64,000 nucleotides of DNA from Methylomicrobium sp. Its GTDB lineage: Bacteria; Pseudomonadota; Gammaproteobacteria; Methylococcales; Methylomonadaceae. The DNA is taken from assembly GCA_018333785.1 (NCBI GenBank), contig JAGXSU010000058.1, forward strand, positions 23,923-87,922, written 5' to 3'. Below, piece by piece: positions 10,849-40,987 of the stretch. Each line of letters begins with the position of its first letter. Positions within the stretch are counted from its first letter, which is position 1. The translations under genes were made by a program, and so were the position numbers. The notes beneath the pieces are model-generated. The model did not search any database and had not been told where the DNA came from. It was given only the letters and a program-made list of their open reading frames with translations.

Positions 10849-11535
10849 TTAGTTACGGATAAAAATTAAATCCCATACGCCATGGCCTAAACGCAGCCCA
10901 CGGTTTTCAAACTTGGTTACCGGTCTGTATTCGGGGCGTTCGCAGTAATCACCGGTCAAACTATTGTTGCTGAGCTCAGGCTCGACGTTTAATACCTCCA
11001 GCATATGCTGAGCATAATTTTCCCAATCGGTTGCTGCATGAAAATAGCCGCCGGGTTTCAATTTTTTGACCACCGTGCGGATGAATTCGGGCCTGACGAT
11101 TCTTCTTTTGTGGTGTTTTTTCTTAGGCCAGGGGTCTGCAAAAAAAAGATGAATTCCGTCCAGAGTGTGGTCTTTGATCCGGCGTTCCAGTATCTCAACC
11201 GCATCATGGCAATAAATTCTGAGGTTGGTTAAGCCGAGTTGTTCCGTGAGCATCAATAAATGCCCAACGCCGGGTTTATGTACTTCAATACCCACAAAAT
11301 TGGTATCCGGTGAATCCGCCGCCATTTGTGCCAGACTTTCGCCATTGCCGAAGCCGATTTCAAGAACGGTCGGCGCTTCTCGTCCGAAGGTTTCAGCAAA
11401 ACAGCATTCTGCGTCAGGATCCAGGCAAAAAGTATCCCAATGGTTTGCCAAAGCGAGTTCCTGGCCGGGAGTAATACGCCCTTGTCTGCGAATAAAACTG
11501 CGAATTCTTCGGGGGGCCGTTGGCTCAGATAACAT
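10849..11535 (-). CDS. trmB: TrmB, tRNA (guanine-N7-)-methyltransferase
   Basis: A 228-residue SAM-dependent enzyme expected to methylate N7 of G46 in tRNA. Motif I is VLEIGFGNGESLAQMA. VGIEVHKPGV follows. The TrmB signature is FADPWPKKKHHKRRIV. The end, YRPVTKFENRGLRLGHGVWDL, carries the conserved TKFE..G element of the tRNA-binding and catalytic region. Length is standard. It follows thiSG by 137 bases on the same strand and is probably the distal gene of an aroG-thiSG-trmB unit. Confidence 0.95.
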   Translation of the reverse strand: MLSEPTAPRRIRSFIRRQGRITPGQELALANHWDTFCLDPDAECCFAETFGREAPTVLEIGFGNGESLAQMAADSPDTNFVGIEVHKPGVGHLLMLTEQLGLTNLRIYCHDAVEILERRIKDHTLDGIHLFFADPWPKKKHHKRRIVRPEFIRTVVKKLKPGGYFHAATDWENYAQHMLEVLNVEPELSNNSLTGDYCERPEYRPVTKFENRGLRLGHGVWDLIFIRN

Positions 11536-11672
11536 GATGCGTGTAAAAGTAAAAATAGGTTAATGCTAAAGGCGTAATGCCGAAGTTTTAAGCAATGTGA
11601 AAAGCTTGTGGTACGACGATGTTTTAACCGCAGGCCGGGTAGCGTTCGCTTTACCCGGCAGCGTTAAAAAGT

Positions 11673-12650
11673 TTACAAAAACAAACCGTCTATGGGCGAT
11701 GATGCTGAGGCAAACCGCTTTCTGGGCATTCTGCCAGCCAAAAATGCAAGCCTGCCTGCTTCTATGCCTTTTTTCATCGCTTCGGCCATTAATACAGGAT
11801 TTTGCGCGGCTGCAATCGCGGTGTTCATCAGTACGCCCGCACAACCTAACTCCATGGCAATGGCGGCGTCAGATGCAGTGCCGACGCCGGCATCTACCAG
11901 AATCGGCACTGAGGCGTTTTCAACGATAGTCAATATGTTATAAGGGTTACGAATGCCAAGGCCTGAGCCTATGGGCGCTGCCAGCGGCATGACGGCGACA
12001 CAGCCGATTTCTTCAAGGCGCTTTGCGGCAATGGGATCGTCATTGGTGTATACCATGACGTCAAAGCCATCTTTAACCAGTAATTCTGCAGCTTTATAGG
12101 TTTCAGCGACATCGGGAAACAGCGTTTTTTGATCCGCCAGCACTTCCAGTTTGACCAGATTATGGCCGCCCAGCAATTCCCGGCCCAAACGGCAGGTGCG
12201 CACGGCGTCATCTGCGGTATAACAACCGGCCGTGTTAGGTAAAATCGTATATTTATCGGGCGAAATGACATCCAGCAGATTGGGTTCGCCGGGGTTTTGG
12301 CCGATATTGGTTCGGCGTATCGCAACCGTTACGATCTCTGCGCCGCTGGCCTCGATGGCCAGGCGTGTTTCTTCCATGTCTTTATATTTTCCGGTACCCA
12401 CCAGCAAACGGGAGCGAAAGCTGCGGCCTGCGACGGTAAAAGAATCGTCCTGCCCGCCGCCTATGGCATGAACTATTTCCAGACGGTCCCCTTCTTTTAA
12501 ATGTTGCTTGGCGTAACTGTCAAACGGCAGGATTTCTTTGTTAAATTCAACAGCAATGCGTTTTCCGGTTAAGCCCATCGCCGCAACTACCTGATCAACC
12601 GTCGTTCCATCAGGGTATGTCAGGGTTTCGCCATTTACAAATACATTCAC
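11673..12650 (-). CDS. thiSG: ThiS-ThiG fusion: sulfur carrier plus thiazole synthase
   Basis: Residues 1-66 are a complete ThiS ubiquitin-like carrier ([16 protein letters not shown], ending IGGG). The rest is ThiG ([21 protein letters not shown] with the Schiff-base Lys; [21 protein letters not shown]). ThiG makes the thiazole phosphate moiety of thiamine from DXP, dehydroglycine and ThiS-thiocarboxylate. The start is set at a GTG (12650), because AGGAG sits about eight bases upstream and it begins exactly at the ThiS fold. A longer frame to 12734 runs into aroG. In the fusion the ThiS Gly-Gly is internal. A bifunctional carrier/thiazole synthase class is known, so this is a family trait, not an assembly error. 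Confidence 0.92.
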
Positions 12651-12661
12651 ACTCTTTCTCC

Positions 12662-13738
12662 TCAGTTTTCGATCATTCTGCGTTGCTGAACGGCTTTGGC
12701 CAAATTGTTTAATAGCTGTACTGAGTCGTTCCATCCCAGACAGGCATCGGTAATACTTTGTCCATAGTTCAACGGTTTGCCCGGTACGACATTCTGGCTG
12801 CCCGGTTTAAGGTGGCTTTCTATCATCACGCCGATAATGCGTTTGTCGCCCCCGCTAATCTGCTCGGCGACATCCTCGCCGACCACCATCTGCCGTTGGT
12901 ATTGCTTCAGGCTGTTGGCATGGCTGAAGTCAATCATGATGTTGGGTCTTAACTTTGCATTCTCAAGACCTTCGGCAACTTTGGCAACATTAAAGGCATC
13001 ATAATTCGTGCCCCCATTGCCGCCGCGCAAGATGATATGCGCATCCTCATTACCGCGCGTCGAAAAAATAGCCGAACGGCCTTCTTTGGTTAACGACAGA
13101 AAATGGTGAGGACTCATCGCTGCGCCGATGGCATCGATGGCAATTTTAATGGACCCATCCGTGGCATTTTTAAAGCCGACTGCACACGACAAGCCGGATG
13201 ACAGTTCGCGGTGAACCTGGCTTTCTGTCGTGCGCGCGCCGATTGCGCCCCATGAAATCAAATCGGAAACGTATTGTGGCGTAATCAAGTCAAGGTATTC
13301 AGTCGCTGCCGGCATACCCATATTATTCAAGTCCAGCAACAAACTTCGGGCGATGCGTAAACCCTTGTTGATATCAAAACTGGAGTCCAGATCCGGATCG
13401 TTGATCAAGCCTTTCCAGCCCACAGTTGTTCTGGGTTTTTCAAAATAAACCCGCATGATGATCAGCAAGTCCTTGCTCAGATCGTCCTTAACCGCTTTCA
13501 GACGGTTTCCATATTCAATCGCGGCTTTAGGGTCGTGAATTGAGCAGGGTCCGATCACCACCATGAGCCGATCATCATCCCCGGTTAAAATATCGTGAAT
13601 CTCCGCCCGGGTTTTTACAACGGTTTCTGCTGCAAACTCGGTAATGGGGTATTCATCATGAACCGTAACAGGCGCAATGACTTCTTTGATTTCACTGATT
13701 CTCAAGTCATCGGTGTTATTTTTAATATGCATGGTCAA
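12662..13738 (-). CDS. aroG: AroG-type DAHP synthase, shikimate pathway entry
   Basis: A 358-residue class I 3-deoxy-7-phosphoheptulonate synthase. It condenses phosphoenolpyruvate and erythrose-4-phosphate. The sequence tracks E. coli AroG closely: [10 protein letters not shown] near the N-terminus, [14 protein letters not shown] with the metal-binding Cys, [39 protein letters not shown] and MIDFSHANS. The N-terminal feedback extension is present, so inhibition by an aromatic amino acid is expected; which one is not decided. Start is ATG at 13738 or 13732 (MTM). thiSG follows after eleven bases, so aroG and thiamine thiazole synthesis share a transcript. Confidence 0.95.
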
Positions 13739-30283: not shown

Positions 30284-31117
30284 ATGAAAAAGTTTGATTT
30301 GCTCTGTCAACTCAGCTGCAACCTGCTGGAACCGGCCGCTTTGGTGTTTAATATTCAGCCAGTTGATAATAAAGTTCAGAAGGTTCTGAATGAAAATCTT
30401 CAGATTGAGCCCTTTATTCGGCCCGAAAAATTCTTAGATCCGTTAGAAGGCAATCGCTGCTTTAGAGTCAATCCTTCTGAAGGTGAAATACAAATTCAAT
30501 ACAGTGCCACTGTGGCAGTTTCCCCTGCCTGGTTTGACCCCTTCGAGATTCACGAAACACCCACCACAAAGCTTCCTGTAGAAACGTTGCGATATCTTTA
30601 TCCCAGCCGTTATTGTCAGTCGGATTTGCTGTTTGGATTGGCAATGTCCGAATTTGGCAATTTGGCATGGGACTATTCTCGGGTTACAGCCATTTGCAAT
30701 TGGATTTATGACAAAGTCAGGTACATATCCGGTAGCAGTGACTCCCAGACTTCAGCCTATGATACCGCTACCCAGAGGGCAGGCGTTTGCCGTGATTTCG
30801 CTCATTTGGCGATTGCTTTCTGCCGTGCTTTAAACATTCCCGCCCGTTTTGTTTCGGCTTATGCCTATCAGTTGGAACCACCTGATTTTCACGCTTGTTT
30901 TGAAGCCTATCTTGGTAATCGCTGGTATTTATTTGATCCCACGAGGCGTGCGCCATTGGACGGTATCATCAGAATCAGTTCAGGTCGAGATGCTGCCGAT
31001 GTTTCCTTTGTCACTTTCTTTGGTGCAGTGCAACTAAACCGGATGAATATATCGGTGGTCCTGACGGAGGAATCCGAAGACCATCCGTTAAAAGACACCG
31101 GGGCGATTGCGATTTGA
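30284..31117 (+). CDS. Transglutaminase-like cysteine protease-fold protein
   Basis: A 277-residue protein with an N-terminal Bact_transglu_N-like beta domain (FRVNPSEGEIQIQYSATVAV) and a transglutaminase core. The triad is visible: Cys in GVCRDFAHLAIAFCRAL, His in DFHACFEAYL, Asp in WYLFDPTRR. No signal peptide is seen, so it is cytoplasmic. Such proteins usually hydrolyse or rearrange peptide bonds and are often found beside circularly permuted ATP-grasp or alpha-E genes; none is next to it here. Its 3' end faces the Wzz-like gene, 28 bases away. Confidence 0.88.
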   Translation: MKKFDLLCQLSCNLLEPAALVFNIQPVDNKVQKVLNENLQIEPFIRPEKFLDPLEGNRCFRVNPSEGEIQIQYSATVAVSPAWFDPFEIHETPTTKLPVETLRYLYPSRYCQSDLLFGLAMSEFGNLAWDYSRVTAICNWIYDKVRYISGSSDSQTSAYDTATQRAGVCRDFAHLAIAFCRALNIPARFVSAYAYQLEPPDFHACFEAYLGNRWYLFDPTRRAPLDGIIRISSGRDAADVSFVTFFGAVQLNRMNISVVLTEESEDHPLKDTGAIAI

Positions 31118-31145: not shown

Positions 31146-33131
31146 CTAAACAGACTGTATTTTGAAGGTGTTGATAAATTCTGCCAGGACAGGGTGAACT
31201 GTTTCGATTTGGTCAATGCCACAACCAGGCCGAGGCGGAGAATATCTGGCGTAATTCAGTAAATCGGAGGTCGGAAGATAACCTACCAGGTTCACTAATT
31301 CACCTAGCCGCAAACCTTGTTTTACCAGGTAGACAATATAAGTATGTCTTATTGATTGGGCGGATATTTCCTCGGGATGGGACAGGCCTGCATCAATAGC
31401 CGCCAGTGATATTAATGCGGACAATTCATGGTTGCTTGACGATTGCTGTTCTTCAAACACTGGGGATTTATCGAGTTTTTCTACCAGGTCTTTCGTTGCT
31501 TTACTGAGTTTAAGGGTGCGCGGAATAGAGCCCCTCAAGGCCATTGTGTTTTTGTCGTAGTCAATATCATCAGGTTTAAGGTTAGCCGTCTCATCCAGAG
31601 AAAGTCCGCAAAGCAACAGACAGATTAACCTTTGGGTTACGCTATTGGCGTTGACAAGTAACCCCCTTAAATCACTATCGGTAAGCTCTCGATCATGCGT
31701 CATCATCAGCGCCGGATTTTGATGTTGTTGCAGCGAGGGTAGCGGTGATTGTTGATAGTCCAGATGATTCAAACGACCATCCTGAGGAATACCGAAGCCG
31801 GATATCATGACGCTGGGTTGATGCTGTTGCGTCCGGCTTAAATAGTCAAAAAGCCAGACACTGATCAGGCCCAACAGCAAAGAGCCTGACACCGCTATCA
31901 GGGCATCGCGGTGATAATCGGGACTGATGGGTTGTAGCGGTAACCGCGCGCGTTCGACGATTTCAACTTGCGGGTATTTTTCATACTGCTGCGTCTCAAT
32001 TTGTACATACCGTTCCTGAGTTTCCCGGTAAATTTTTTCCAAACCTTCCAGATCGGATTTAAGTCTTTCGTGTTCCGTGAAACGGGTACTGAAATCGGCA
32101 GCTAACTTTTTATGAGCATTGAGTTGCTCCTTAATGGCATTCACTGTTTGACGGGCCGCGGCATATTCCTGTTCGGCCTCTGAATGGACTATCTGTTTGC
32201 CAAAATGACTTTTACTTTCTATTTCATTTTCAAGCTTTTTGATTTCTTCGGGAAGTTGTTTGATGGCAGGTTGCAAGGCCATAAATCCTGGGGTATAGCG
32301 CTGTTGGAATTCGGCCAGTTTTTCTTTAAGTTGCTGCAAGCGAAGCTCAAGCGCTGCCAGATTGGCTTGGTCTTGTTTGGGTACAACGACCTTTCCTTCG
32401 GCGATCGCTTTGTTAATGGCTTCAAGTTTGGCTTTGGCTTTAACTTCTTCTTCACTCGCGTTATTTAGAGAGGTCGTCAATCCTTTCAGTCTGGCTAAGA
32501 CATCGTTTTCATCGCGCCCGGTTGAGATAATGTCATGCTGATGACTGAATTGAGTCAATTCCGAACGGGTCTCTTCGATTTTTTGTTCTAAAGCCAGTAG
32601 TTCCTCCTTAAGCTTTTGCGTGGTACCGCTTTTGTTTTTTTCAATCTCCTCTGCACGCGCATCGCTATAAACATCGATCCATGTATTAATCAGTAAAGGC
32701 AGGAGTCCAGGTTCAGTGCTTTCTGCCAGCATCCTGACCAGATTCGTTTCCGGAATGGGCTGTACCTGCAAGATCTGATGAACCTGGGACATGTCCATCT
32801 GTATTTCGGGGCGTGTCAGTTTAAGCCGCCTGATGGTTTCAGTCAGTAATTCCTGGCTCAACAAAACTTGCCGTTGAATGGCGACATGCTCTACATCAGG
32901 GACCTTGCTCGCTTGATCGATAGCCGTCATTGCCGAGGTAAGTAAGGTTGCTGTGCTTTGAAAAATGGCGGGGCGGCTGTAACTGAAAATCAGGCTGATT
33001 GAGGCCGAACAAACAAAGACCATCAAAAAAATAATCAACCTGGGCGAGCGGTACCAAGGCGGTTGATTTACGGTTGGAATGCCGGACGGGTTTTTTTCAA
33101 TGATCTCTATGTGTGGGGGGTAAATGTTCAC
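31146..33131 (-). CDS. Wzz/GumC-type chain-length protein fused to a degenerate tyrosine-recombinase domain
   Basis: A 661-residue inner-membrane protein. TM1 (about 31-51) and TM2 (about 410-430) bracket a long periplasmic coiled coil (about 165-400). This is the plan of GumC/Wzz polysaccharide co-polymerases, which set polymer length. The cytoplasmic C-terminus (about 475-640) aligns with the catalytic domain of phage integrases: LICLLLCGLSLDETANLKPD, then SIRHTYIVYLVKQGLRLGEL, LVGYLP and LLNYARY. Against XerD the box-I Arg is Ser511, the H-x-x-R His is Gln592 (Arg595 kept), the LGH His is Tyr618, and the nucleophile Tyr627 is kept at the exact spacing. A tyrosine kinase would be more usual here. 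Recombinase activity is therefore unlikely; DNA binding, protein binding or a regulatory role is inference. It lies by a membrane GH17 gene. Confidence 0.75.
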   Translation of the reverse strand: MNIYPPHIEIIEKNPSGIPTVNQPPWYRSPRLIIFLMVFVCSASISLIFSYSRPAIFQSTATLLTSAMTAIDQASKVPDVEHVAIQRQVLLSQELLTETIRRLKLTRPEIQMDMSQVHQILQVQPIPETNLVRMLAESTEPGLLPLLINTWIDVYSDARAEEIEKNKSGTTQKLKEELLALEQKIEETRSELTQFSHQHDIISTGRDENDVLARLKGLTTSLNNASEEEVKAKAKLEAINKAIAEGKVVVPKQDQANLAALELRLQQLKEKLAEFQQRYTPGFMALQPAIKQLPEEIKKLENEIESKSHFGKQIVHSEAEQEYAAARQTVNAIKEQLNAHKKLAADFSTRFTEHERLKSDLEGLEKIYRETQERYVQIETQQYEKYPQVEIVERARLPLQPISPDYHRDALIAVSGSLLLGLISVWLFDYLSRTQQHQPSVMISGFGIPQDGRLNHLDYQQSPLPSLQQHQNPALMMTHDRELTDSDLRGLLVNANSVTQRLICLLLCGLSLDETANLKPDDIDYDKNTMALRGSIPRTLKLSKATKDLVEKLDKSPVFEEQQSSSNHELSALISLAAIDAGLSHPEEISAQSIRHTYIVYLVKQGLRLGELVNLVGYLPTSDLLNYARYSPPRPGCGIDQIETVHPVLAEFINTFKIQSV

Positions 33132-33490: not shown

Positions 33491-35197
33491 TTATGGTTGA
33501 GTAATCTCCTCTTTTGCGCTGTTCGGCCGATACAAAAAGGGCAGTGCCATAATCAGCAGGCAAATTAGCCAAATGACCAACTGTTGATTGCCCAGAGTGA
33601 AAGACAGGGCAACCCGGATACGTTCAGCATTGCCTGGATAAGCTTGGATTAAGTCCCGTGCGACGACAAACGCATAGGTTTCGCCAATGACCAAAATAGG
33701 GGCCATGACAAGCAAGGCGTAGCCTAACCTAGTGTCATGATTTATTCGATTGATGCCCGTGCCGATCAGATTTTCGATAGACACTGATTTAATGGAAAGC
33801 TGTTTTGACGCTAAAAAATGGGTAAAAATCAGAGCTATTAAGCTGATGACAGGGATTGCAGCCAATTCGACCGGAAAGCTGATATAGCGGCCATTAATGG
33901 CCAGGCCCAAGGTTTTGTATAAAGCAAATGCGCCAAATACAAAGAAGATACGGTACAGCCAAGTGCCTAATTTAGGATGGATGGCGTTTTGTGTTAACTG
34001 ATTAATCAGCTTGAATAAGATTAAACCGCTGAGCGCAGCATTGAATAACGCGCCGGTTAAAGTAATAAATCGTTGCCAATGGCTATAGCTGGTGTAAAAC
34101 AGCTCGTCGATCTGAACGATCAGCAATACGCCAAGCAGCTGGGTAAAAACCAAATAACCCAAGGCGATTTGCCAGTTTACAGTGAGCAGCTGTTTACGAA
34201 AGGCAAACGCGACCATCAGCAAAAAGAGTGACGAAAAAATACAGCGTTCATACCAGTCATCATTTTCATAGACGGGCCCGGTAAGCGGGAATACTTCCTT
34301 GCGTTCAGATGAATACAAGCCCCAGTTGGCGCCGACCACGCCTTCCAGGTTGCTCTTCCACGGCTGATTGAAAGCCTCCACAATGTTGTAGTCGAAACCG
34401 TTTTCCGTTGCGACTTTAATCAGTCCCCGGATAAACATGGCTTCATTGACAATACTGGGCACTGCCGATCCGCGTTGCCGTCCTTTGCCCGGCCAGCCGG
34501 ATTCGCCAATTAGAATGGGTTTTCCGGGGCTGATTTGATCGGCTTCTGCGCGAACTTGCTTGTAAATCCGGTCAATATGTCCGGGTGCCTCTTCGACAGG
34601 AATAGGCTCGTCTTCCCAATAAGGCAGAATATGAATGGTGATAAAGTCGACTTCTTTGATCAGTTCCGGATGTTTAAGATACATGGACCAAACATCGGCA
34701 TACGAGACGGGCTGCTTGACCGCTTGTTTGACGCGGCGGATATAGTCCAGCAGTTGTTCCGGTTTCAAATCACCCCGCAACAACACTTCATTACCGACAA
34801 TGACGCGCTTAATGACATCGGGATACGTGTTTGCGGCGTGGATAAGCGCCTCAATTTCCTCATTGTTGTCTTTTTTGCCATATCCCAGCCAGGCCCCCTG
34901 TATCATGTTGAGGCCGTATTTCCCGGCAAGCTTGGGCGTGACGCGCATATTTTCAGCGCTGGAATAAGTTCTGATGGTATGCGTTTTATCAGCCAGTAAG
35001 CGTAAGTCTTCATCTATTTGCGCTTCGGTAGCAAATTTTTCTTCAAGAGGACTTTGGCCTTCCCTGAACGGGGCGAACGATAAACTGTTCAATTTGCCCT
35101 CGGGAACGTCTTCGCCAACGTTCTGAGGCTGATTGAATAGCCAGCTGATGCCAATATTGGACAGGATGACTAAGACGGCAATGACTATAAATCTCAT
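33491..35197 (-). CDS. Membrane-bound GH17-family glucan hydrolase/transglycosylase
   Basis: A 568-residue inner-membrane protein. After one N-terminal helix (FIVIAVLVILSNIGISWLF), a GH17 barrel of about 280 residues faces the periplasm. The candidate acid/base is in RVIVGNEVLLRGDL, and the nucleophile in PILIGESGWPGKGRQRG. About eight transmembrane helices form the C-terminal half (for example SSLFLLMVAFAF, IALGYLVFTQLLGVLLIV, LLVMAPILVIGETYAFVVA). Such proteins modify or elongate beta-1,3- or mixed glucans during export. It lies 360 bases upstream of the Wzz-like gene on the same strand, consistent with an exopolysaccharide function, though glycosyltransferases are not in the window. Confidence 0.83.
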   Translation of the reverse strand: MRFIVIAVLVILSNIGISWLFNQPQNVGEDVPEGKLNSLSFAPFREGQSPLEEKFATEAQIDEDLRLLADKTHTIRTYSSAENMRVTPKLAGKYGLNMIQGAWLGYGKKDNNEEIEALIHAANTYPDVIKRVIVGNEVLLRGDLKPEQLLDYIRRVKQAVKQPVSYADVWSMYLKHPELIKEVDFITIHILPYWEDEPIPVEEAPGHIDRIYKQVRAEADQISPGKPILIGESGWPGKGRQRGSAVPSIVNEAMFIRGLIKVATENGFDYNIVEAFNQPWKSNLEGVVGANWGLYSSERKEVFPLTGPVYENDDWYERCIFSSLFLLMVAFAFRKQLLTVNWQIALGYLVFTQLLGVLLIVQIDELFYTSYSHWQRFITLTGALFNAALSGLILFKLINQLTQNAIHPKLGTWLYRIFFVFGAFALYKTLGLAINGRYISFPVELAAIPVISLIALIFTHFLASKQLSIKSVSIENLIGTGINRINHDTRLGYALLVMAPILVIGETYAFVVARDLIQAYPGNAERIRVALSFTLGNQQLVIWLICLLIMALPFLYRPNSAKEEITQP

Positions 35198-39164: not shown

Positions 39165-40184
39165 TTAAACGCGTTTGGCTTGAGTTTGGTTACGGGCGTT
39201 TTCCAGATCCCGATAAACCGGCATTACCCACTCCTCAGCGGCATCCATCAAGACCTGATTAGCTTCCTGTTGTTTTGAGTCATTGTCGGGAACAAATGAA
39301 AATCCAGGGTTTTTGGCATCTGAACGAGCAGAATTCCGCATGCTAATGAGTTCGGAAGCATCCCAGGAAATATTGAAATGTTTGGCTATCGATGTCCATG
39401 CTGCTTTAGGCAGTTCCGAGTAGTTGACAAGCAACCCATTGCCTAAGGCTTGATGTTTTAGTGCCGCATGAAGGATGCAACCTAAGACATGTGCGCAATA
39501 AGCTTCCGTTGTCATGAGTGAGGTCTGGTCTTGAGTTAAACCAAACATTTCCGGTTCCAGCATGCCTGCCACCATGTGCAGGCCTCGTCGGCGTTTATGC
39601 GAAACCAGTACTTCCAGAGGGTGACGATATATAAACACCCATGGCACATCGGGAAACGCGGCTTTGATTAACGGTAATTCAAGCATGTGCCAAGCATCGA
39701 ATTTGATAAAGAATCTGGCTTCCTCGGCATGCCGACGCTGACTAAAAACACTGACTAAGCTTTTCAAAATTTCAGTACGCCGGGCTTCATCAGCGAATGC
39801 CCGACCTCGATAGTGCGACCGTATAATCGTATCTAAAGGGTCCGCTTCAGCTATGACGATATTTCGGCCGCAACTTGAGAGCATCTGCGTCAACAACGTA
39901 GAACCGCAACGGGAACTATGAAAAATAAATCCTGTCGGCTTCATTCCAGGTTGTAATCCATGTAGTTCTCGCAGCGCATCCAAAGAGGTTTGCCTACAGA
40001 ATAATTGATTGAACGGCTGGCGCAGGAGATGCGCGATCGTTTCCTCGAAAAATGGCTCCACGAACCGTTTTTCGCCCAATCGGCACCAATGAACTAAAGA
40101 ATCCTCACCCTTTTGTTCTATTCGAACGGGTATCCATTCCAGTAGTTCATGGGCTCTTATCTTGTCGTCCATCGAAATAGGCAT
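39165..40184 (-). CDS. Sulfotransferase-family protein
   Basis: A 339-residue P-loop-like sulfotransferase. The PAPS 5'-phosphosulfate loop is GFIFHSSRCGSTLLTQML. The 3'-phosphate-binding strand is VPWVFIYRHPLEVLVSHKRR, with DAWHMLELPLIKAAFPD before it. It is expected to move a sulfo group to a hydroxyl or amine; the acceptor is unknown. It overlaps the hydroxylase gene by 28 bases, so the two are cotranscribed and may act on one substrate. A hydroxylase next to a sulfotransferase suggests that a new hydroxyl is then sulfated (inference). Confidence 0.82.
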   Translation of the reverse strand: MPISMDDKIRAHELLEWIPVRIEQKGEDSLVHWCRLGEKRFVEPFFEETIAHLLRQPFNQLFCRQTSLDALRELHGLQPGMKPTGFIFHSSRCGSTLLTQMLSSCGRNIVIAEADPLDTIIRSHYRGRAFADEARRTEILKSLVSVFSQRRHAEEARFFIKFDAWHMLELPLIKAAFPDVPWVFIYRHPLEVLVSHKRRRGLHMVAGMLEPEMFGLTQDQTSLMTTEAYCAHVLGCILHAALKHQALGNGLLVNYSELPKAAWTSIAKHFNISWDASELISMRNSARSDAKNPGFSFVPDNDSKQQEANQVLMDAAEEWVMPVYRDLENARNQTQAKRV

Positions 40185-40987
40185 TCGTTTCGGTTTTTAC
40201 GCATTACGGCCCGGAGATCTTCTTCGGTAAAAGCAAAGCGCCGATCTAGCGCTTCCTTTCTGACCAGTTGCATAAACGCTTCGAAATCCTCAATTTTCCA
40301 AAAGAGTCCGGCTAGTTCCGCATCCCGTGCGACCAGTTCTCTGAATGCGTGTAAATTTTGTACAGATTCGCCGGTACTAGCCAGTGGCAAATGGCCTTGA
40401 CTTGGTAATTCAGTAGATTTTGATGCGGCTCCGGATCTGAATAGATCAGCAAGCCAATCATTTACTTTACAATCGACAACGAGATGAATACGGTCCTCCC
40501 TACCCAGATTTTGGACGCGATGCGGAAAGTTGACATTGACATACCAGACCTCTCCCTCAGCCATGATAATCCGCTCGCCGTCCAGATAAAATTCTACTTG
40601 CGGATTGGTTATTATAGGAATATGTAGCCGCACCTCGCCGTCTTCATACCCCAGCATGTAATCTCGATGTTCGCGAATCACCGAACCGGCGCGCAATTTG
40701 AGCAGTCTGACTGATAATAAGGTGCAATCGAAACTGCGCAACACTGAACTGATATAAGGGCAGTTTCCTAGCGCGTCAGTATCGTTGAATTGCTGCTGCT
40801 CAGGATCAGGATAAAGCGGATGGCCGAAACCCTCCGCGTTGCGCAAGGAAACGCCCATCCACCCACCGTCATGGTAATCACTGTTGAAATGGCCAAGCCA
40901 TTTTTGTTCCTGAATTCGAACGAGATCCTCACGTAACTTGTCAGGACTGAATTTGATGGCTAATTTAAAGGCTTTAGGGATATTCAA
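40157..40987 (-). CDS. Aspartyl/asparaginyl beta-hydroxylase-type 2OG oxygenase
   Basis: A 276-residue non-haem iron, 2-oxoglutarate-dependent oxygenase. AGSVIREHRDYMLGYEDG supplies His-x-Asp. The second His is in YVNVNFPHRVQNLG. RIHLVVDCKVNDWLADLF has the 2OG-binding region. RLHIPIITNPQVEFYLDG is the core double-stranded beta helix. Members hydroxylate Asp/Asn of peptides or free amino acids. A C-terminal segment of about 80 residues is not recognised. The sulfotransferase gene overlaps its end. Confidence 0.86.
   Translation of the reverse strand: MNIPKAFKLAIKFSPDKLREDLVRIQEQKWLGHFNSDYHDGGWMGVSLRNAEGFGHPLYPDPEQQQFNDTDALGNCPYISSVLRSFDCTLLSVRLLKLRAGSVIREHRDYMLGYEDGEVRLHIPIITNPQVEFYLDGERIIMAEGEVWYVNVNFPHRVQNLGREDRIHLVVDCKVNDWLADLFRSGAASKSTELPSQGHLPLASTGESVQNLHAFRELVARDAELAGLFWKIEDFEAFMQLVRKEALDRRFAFTEEDLRAVMRKNRNECLFRWTTR

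Follow-up and report, generated by a model that had tools for sequence, protein, structure and literature searches.

A 64,000-nucleotide stretch of a Methylomicrobium sp. genome (contig JAGXSU010000058.1, positions 23,923 to 87,922), referred to here as the window, carries a gene that joins a polysaccharide co-polymerase (PCP)-like membrane part to a C-terminal domain with a tyrosine-recombinase fold. An initial annotation had proposed such a fusion, with a recombinase domain that looked catalytically dead. The encoded protein runs from the PCP-like part through a second helix and a linker to the recombinase-fold domain, and its single residues were placed by an alignment of 101 family members:

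31146..33131, minus strand: the whole fused gene, 661 amino acids, a single open reading frame (ORF); intact fused relatives exist
32976..33044, minus strand: helix 30-52, presumed first membrane helix, from the AlphaFold model, with its membrane role taken from the Wzc match
31917..32975, minus strand: residues 53-405, presumed periplasmic PCP part, an alpha/beta base with a long helical hairpin (TIGR03007, Wzc profile and Wzc fold matches)
31836..31916, minus strand: helix 406-432, presumed second membrane helix (AlphaFold model)
31701..31835, minus strand: linker 433-477, modelled with low confidence (predicted local distance difference test below 50 over 434-477)
31167..31700, minus strand: residues 478-655, tyrosine-recombinase catalytic fold without most of the catalytic residues (profile and fold matches, alignment)
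31599..31601, minus strand: Ser511, at the box-I Arg position
31356..31358, minus strand: Gln592, at the HxxR His position
31347..31349, minus strand: Arg595, the kept box-II Arg
31278..31280, minus strand: Tyr618, at the LGH His position
31251..31253, minus strand: Tyr627, the nucleophile position

The fused protein is probably an inner-membrane protein with its recombinase-fold domain in the cytoplasm. Over linker residues 434-477, relatives share a mean identity of 21% with the window copy.

Profile and fold searches bear out the PCP-like nature of the membrane part. TIGR03007, the chain-length determinant of XrtA systems, matches residues 34-438 (E 8.2e-22); EpsF and exopolysaccharide-transport families match the N-terminal part more weakly, all under curated cut-offs, and PF13807 reaches E 0.033 on the fused protein. 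Built from 34 relatives, a profile finds Wzc chains in the PDB at E 6.8e-10, with its best stretch over 288-514, and in a fold search the predicted model aligns to Wzc chains over about residues 21-434. As in the PCP superfamily, two helices flank an alpha/beta and coiled-coil periplasmic part in this model. Wzc and other PCP-2a proteins have a similar layout, with an alpha/beta base, a helical hairpin, two predicted membrane helices and a C-terminal domain after the second. However, that domain is a bacterial tyrosine kinase (BY-kinase) with a Tyr-rich tail in PCP-2a proteins and a recombinase fold here.

The C-terminal part matches XerA/XerD-type recombinases in a profile search of the fused protein. 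A profile of 41 relatives' domains matches the archaeal Xer recombinase 4a8e (E 4.3e-11) and, more weakly, integron, P2 and XerD enzymes, while PF00589 matches 36 of the 41 domains at E <= 0.1. Together with the fold searches, these results place the domain in the tyrosine-recombinase catalytic fold; families missing from the fold-match lists are not counted as excluded. The lists include the phage repressors MrpR/YopR and SroF (8a0a, 8bpz, 9rgl), which likewise have a recombinase fold without recombinase function, but here the fold is acidic and belongs to a membrane protein. A search for stand-alone domains returned 23 proteins; several of the ten that were read, at about 190 amino acids, resemble pieces of fused genes or genes called from a start inside one.

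Of the catalytic set R-K-H-R-H-Y, the window's protein lacks four of six residues. Residues were counted in 101 of 104 aligned rows, leaving out two without the domain (L157, L158) and one cut by a contig end (L161); 21 rows with identical ends had been dropped before alignment, close relatives stay among the 101, and the set includes five gene fragments or pieces, with 96 members exceeding 600 amino acids. The box-I Arg position holds T in 56, S in 28, D in 10, L in 2, N in 2 and A, G and K in 1 each, and never R. His is likewise absent at the HxxR position (0/101) and present in 15 members at the LGH position, where 40 have Tyr. No Lys stands at the aligned hairpin columns 536-537 in any of the 101 members. 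By contrast with these losses, Arg595 is kept in 95/101, and the position of Tyr627 holds Tyr in 95, Phe in 3 and Leu in 3. G509, E514, R538 and G617 are invariant. In the model, no N-terminal core-binding domain precedes the fold, only the low-confidence linker and then helix 406-432.

Several members carry the public protein names integrase or GumC family protein. An active, membrane-anchored recombinase or integrase, as the former name implies and the PF00589 match might encourage, has only the slimmest chance: the lost box-I Arg and HxxR His, the lack of Lys at the hairpin columns and the missing core-binding domain led to its rejection on residues. XerA, XerC, XerD and the integron and phage integrases differ from the domain in these same features and in its reduced LGH His, acidic charge and fusion to a membrane protein.

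The four positions E514, R538, R595 and Tyr627 are 94-100% conserved while other catalytic positions vary, which raises another explanation. These residues might form a pocket, left over from the active site, for a ligand that carries phosphate (a nucleotide sugar, for example), which would make the domain a sensor regulating the co-polymerase. This is rather unlikely, as the four may merely hold the fold together, and Tyr627 is replaced by Phe or Leu in 6/101 members and Arg595 by other residues in 6/101.

Charge bears on whether the domain could act on DNA. All 101 domains are net negative, from -13 to -1. The segment presumed to be the DNA-reading helix has a mean net charge of -2.5 across the 101 members, compared with a mean of +2.2 in the controls (13 rows, some out of register), and lacks any Lys or Arg in 54/101. 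The controls are recombinases that pass a catalytic-signature filter, others having been dropped; with P0036 present twice, the 13 rows represent 12 proteins, of which the window's genome, with its 27 PF00589 matches, supplies 10. The rule for delimiting control domains resembled that for the family without being the same, and inserts put several of their helix segments out of register. Eleven of the 12 are positive and one, from the window's genome, is at -3. A phage phi3T MrpR homologue carries +5 over the comparable C-terminal part and a phi3T integrase 0. Since one same-genome recombinase is negative and the phi3T integrase neutral, charge alone is not decisive. In the window's genome, three tyrosine-recombinase matches lie in a row at G000:C49:807-3258 (L076-L078).

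These values weigh on the idea of a membrane-anchored DNA tether or sensor, in which the dead domain would still bind DNA like MrpR and link an envelope protein to the chromosome. MrpR does bind DNA without recombinase residues, and this binding seems to depend critically on the Tyr304 it has kept, according to the sections of PMC10516654 on this point; the persistence of Arg595 and Tyr627 and an SNF2 helicase gene adjoining the fused gene in 14 loci would also fit. Even so, with every domain acidic, the basic residues of the helix gone, a positively charged MrpR homologue and no core-binding domain ahead of the fold, DNA binding is disfavoured, and such a tether is quite improbable. The initial annotation had suggested recruitment of the fold as a DNA- or protein-binding module. 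Recruitment as a non-enzymatic module was correct; of the two branches, the DNA one fares poorly and the protein one is the preferred reading.

The fusion is widespread in some lineages. A single ORF covers both parts in 37 of 121 genomes (the window's and 120 relatives; families f1, f4 and f6), several of them in assemblies of one to three contigs, and a few further genomes hold copies that are partial, split or cut by a contig end. When named genomes were scanned, at least 74 loci came up, an undercount because the search pattern was one single peptide. Their hosts are Methylococcales, among them Methylotuvimicrobium buryatense (L098), Nitrosospira, Nitrosovibrio, Nitrosomonas, Thiohalocapsa and another member of the Chromatiaceae, Plasticicumulans and Sedimenticola. 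The fusion was therefore rightly expected across Methylococcales and extends to betaproteobacterial ammonia oxidisers and Chromatiaceae. One ORF spans both parts in 70 of the 74 loci; the exceptions are L157 (Seongchinamella) and L158 (a gammaproteobacterium), both with a PCP part but no domain, L161, which a contig end truncates, and L164, where the gene is split. An assembly or gene-calling artefact joining two genes, which the initial annotation had wanted checked, thus has a virtually nil chance, and an assembly fusion was rejected; finished relatives show one gene.

In a class-wide sample, 6/369 genomes have a full match and two more matches (E <= 1e-15) cover the PCP part only. Among Nitrosomonadaceae the fusion occurs in 38/91 genomes (genus g314 22/23, g286 16/51, g313 and g315 0/17). 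A link to methane or ammonia monooxygenase, suspected from the hosts and tested with PF02461, was rejected, as the monooxygenase does not predict the fusion. PF02461 is found in 55/91 Nitrosomonadaceae and in 100/121 genomes of the relatives set, compared with full fusions in 38/91 and 37/121; g286 has the fusion in 16/51 though many members have PF02461, and g313/g315 lack the fusion in all 17 genomes, five of them with PF02461. Draft assemblies seem to drop PF02461.

The three genomes searched in the window's genus have two copies each. The second copy in the window's genome (G000:C62:28902-30803; L031:8894-10846) is 43% identical to the window copy. A pmoA-family gene (C62:19710-20423) is found some 8.5 kb away from it; in the two other genomes the distance is 8.6-9.1 kb. 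Elsewhere, the Plasticicumulans ORF (L155:2658-5720) reaches 1020 amino acids with a long N-terminal extension, and at L059:7983-9993 and L164:4228-6385 two overlapping ORFs take the place of the single fused one.

Among three window-type orthologues, ratios of nonsynonymous to synonymous substitution (dN/dS) lie at 0.25-0.34 over the domain and at 0.12-0.14 over the PCP part; for a pair of paralogues the values are about 0.10 and about 0.08, respectively. Judged by these ratios, both parts of the protein are under purifying selection. The two parts also have a shared history, as far as quick trees of 94 rows each (leaving out L155, L147 and PCP-only rows) show it: 56/91 splits are in common, and six of eight groups tested are clades in both. 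All ammonia oxidisers together form a clade in neither tree, and Nitrosospira plus two Methylobacter-like rows do so in the PCP tree only. The ammonia-oxidiser copies (L102-L168) form separate Nitrosospira/Nitrosovibrio and Nitrosomonas clades among methanotroph copies, and these two places suggest that ammonia oxidisers got the fusion by at least two horizontal transfers. Genus g11 (L055-L057), which has the PCP part only, groups with the fused L047, itself with Leu at position 627; this grouping suggests that g11 lost the domain.

Such losses, together with the domain's higher dN/dS, its absence in L157 and L158 and the broken genes of L059 and L164, could indicate a decaying passenger, captured by chance and now without activity or function. 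This is improbable, as the domain's dN/dS is still 0.10-0.34, E514, R538 and G617 are invariant and nearly every sampled g314 genome keeps the fused gene.

The scan of gene surroundings covered ten neighbour families of relatives and ten window neighbours. The genes beside the fused gene in the window are:

30284-31117: transglutaminase-like gene
33491-35197, minus strand: GH17-family gene (Pfam scan)

A GH17 gene also stands next to the fused gene in four loci besides the window. Other scanned window neighbours are aldolase-, hydrolase-, glutathione-transferase- and sulfotransferase-like; at 39165-40987 (minus strand), sulfotransferase-like and aspartyl/asparaginyl hydroxylase-like genes overlap. 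Among relatives, neighbourhoods are kept only within groups. The ten families, mostly housekeeping, are an ATP-binding cassette (ABC) exporter, SNF2/SWIM helicase, family-2 glycosyltransferase, fatty-acid hydroxylase, DUF3047, PHP domain, FAD oxidoreductase, saccharopine dehydrogenase, phosphoenolpyruvate carboxylase and succinate dehydrogenase flavoprotein. Locus counts include repeat records of some genomes (three for the helicase). The glycosyltransferase gene lies directly 3' of the fused gene in 11 loci (e.g. L036:10565-11254), often followed by the fatty-acid hydroxylase gene, and the ABC exporter gene lies directly after it in 15 of the 17 loci holding it (before it in L155, unresolved in L046); neither neighbour is general. 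The exporter loci belong mostly to families f4 and f6, and at L044 (fused gene 11010-12905) the longest ORFs overlap. The helicase gene is upstream in 13 of its loci and downstream in L068 (e.g. L036:4902-8219), and also adjoins the second copy of the window's genus.

The link to exopolysaccharide drawn by the initial annotation is only weakly visible beside the gene, in the GH17 and glycosyltransferase neighbours, and no Wzx/Wzy locus was found among the neighbours scanned, an apparent difference from Wzc. The polysaccharide role consequently rests mainly on homology. The window's genome has three matches to outer-membrane polysaccharide export (OPX) proteins, BY-kinase-like matches (two over the cut-off, a third below) and Wzz-like matches on C40, C86, C106 and C62. 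Only C40 is over the cut-off, C62 is the second fused copy, and the window copy itself was unmatched in this genome-wide search. Co-polymerase-type matches lie close together by coordinates on C86, C106 and C40, indicating that the genome has ordinary co-polymerase sets at other sites.

Taken together, the fused protein fits best into a PCP-like subfamily of its own, marked by a new module in the cytoplasm, being neither a tyrosine recombinase by its catalytic set nor a PCP-2a protein by its kinase. The reading we prefer, with a probability of roughly 0.5, is a Wzc-like co-polymerase whose recombinase-fold domain, without four of six catalytic residues, scaffolds ring assembly from protein to protein without phosphorylation. 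It is proposed because the domain sits in the kinase's place, lacks the recombination residues, is acidic and is conserved. Wzc alternates between an octamer and a phosphorylated monomer, and its tail reaches into the neighbouring kinase, according to the relevant parts of PMC8285477. In Myxococcus xanthus, the sections of PMC12004946 on EcpK/EpsV (a PCP-2 protein with a BY pseudokinase) propose that the pseudokinase EcpK acts on its PCP by binding and not phosphorylation. This resembles the control by a dead enzyme domain envisaged here, but EcpK is a separate protein with a BY-kinase fold, while here the domain is fused and has another fold.

Through direct contacts of the kind proposed for EcpK, the recombinase-fold domain would form or stabilise the co-polymerase ring, or else dock a partner, for example Wzy or a glycosyltransferase. 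The segment past Tyr627 would be the likeliest contact element. In Xer-type recombinases, the C-terminal segment packs on the neighbouring subunit. Synthesis of the polysaccharide itself would fall to a locus at another site of the genome.

Several observations weigh against this scaffold. Xer-type rings are tetramers and Wzc is octameric; it is therefore not evident that the same contacts would build the ring. PCP scores are far under curated cut-offs (TIGR03007 77 bits vs 278.85), although NCBIfam cut-offs delimit subgroups and not the fold; Pfam alone is weak, with Wzz PF02706 not significant on the fused protein (E 0.49), and several Wzc fold alignments have a root-mean-square deviation of 18-20 A. 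To these are added the lack of a Wzx/Wzy locus among the scanned neighbours, the faster evolution of the domain relative to the PCP part, and the lineages with the PCP part only (g11, L157, L158), in which the domain is evidently dispensable.

A further-reaching version can be put forward only tentatively. The proteins may form an undescribed PCP subfamily, spread over oxidisers of methane and of ammonia and some purple sulphur bacteria, whose pseudo-recombinase domain replaces the kinase structurally and drives ring assembly by subunit contacts that descend from those of Xer synapses, regulating surface-polymer export without phosphorylation. No description of such a fusion was found among open-licence PMC papers.

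The way in which the cytoplasmic part of Wzc-type proteins governs their assembly is under active study; today's view centres on tyrosine phosphorylation, to which a pseudokinase has recently been an exception. A variant common in nature, with a domain at the kinase position that is no kinase and is unrelated to one, would test what is needed there, phosphorylation or a mere contact surface. The names integrase and GumC mislead the annotation of mobile elements and of polysaccharide genes alike. The scaffold proposed here would also show the tyrosine-recombinase fold at work inside a membrane protein.
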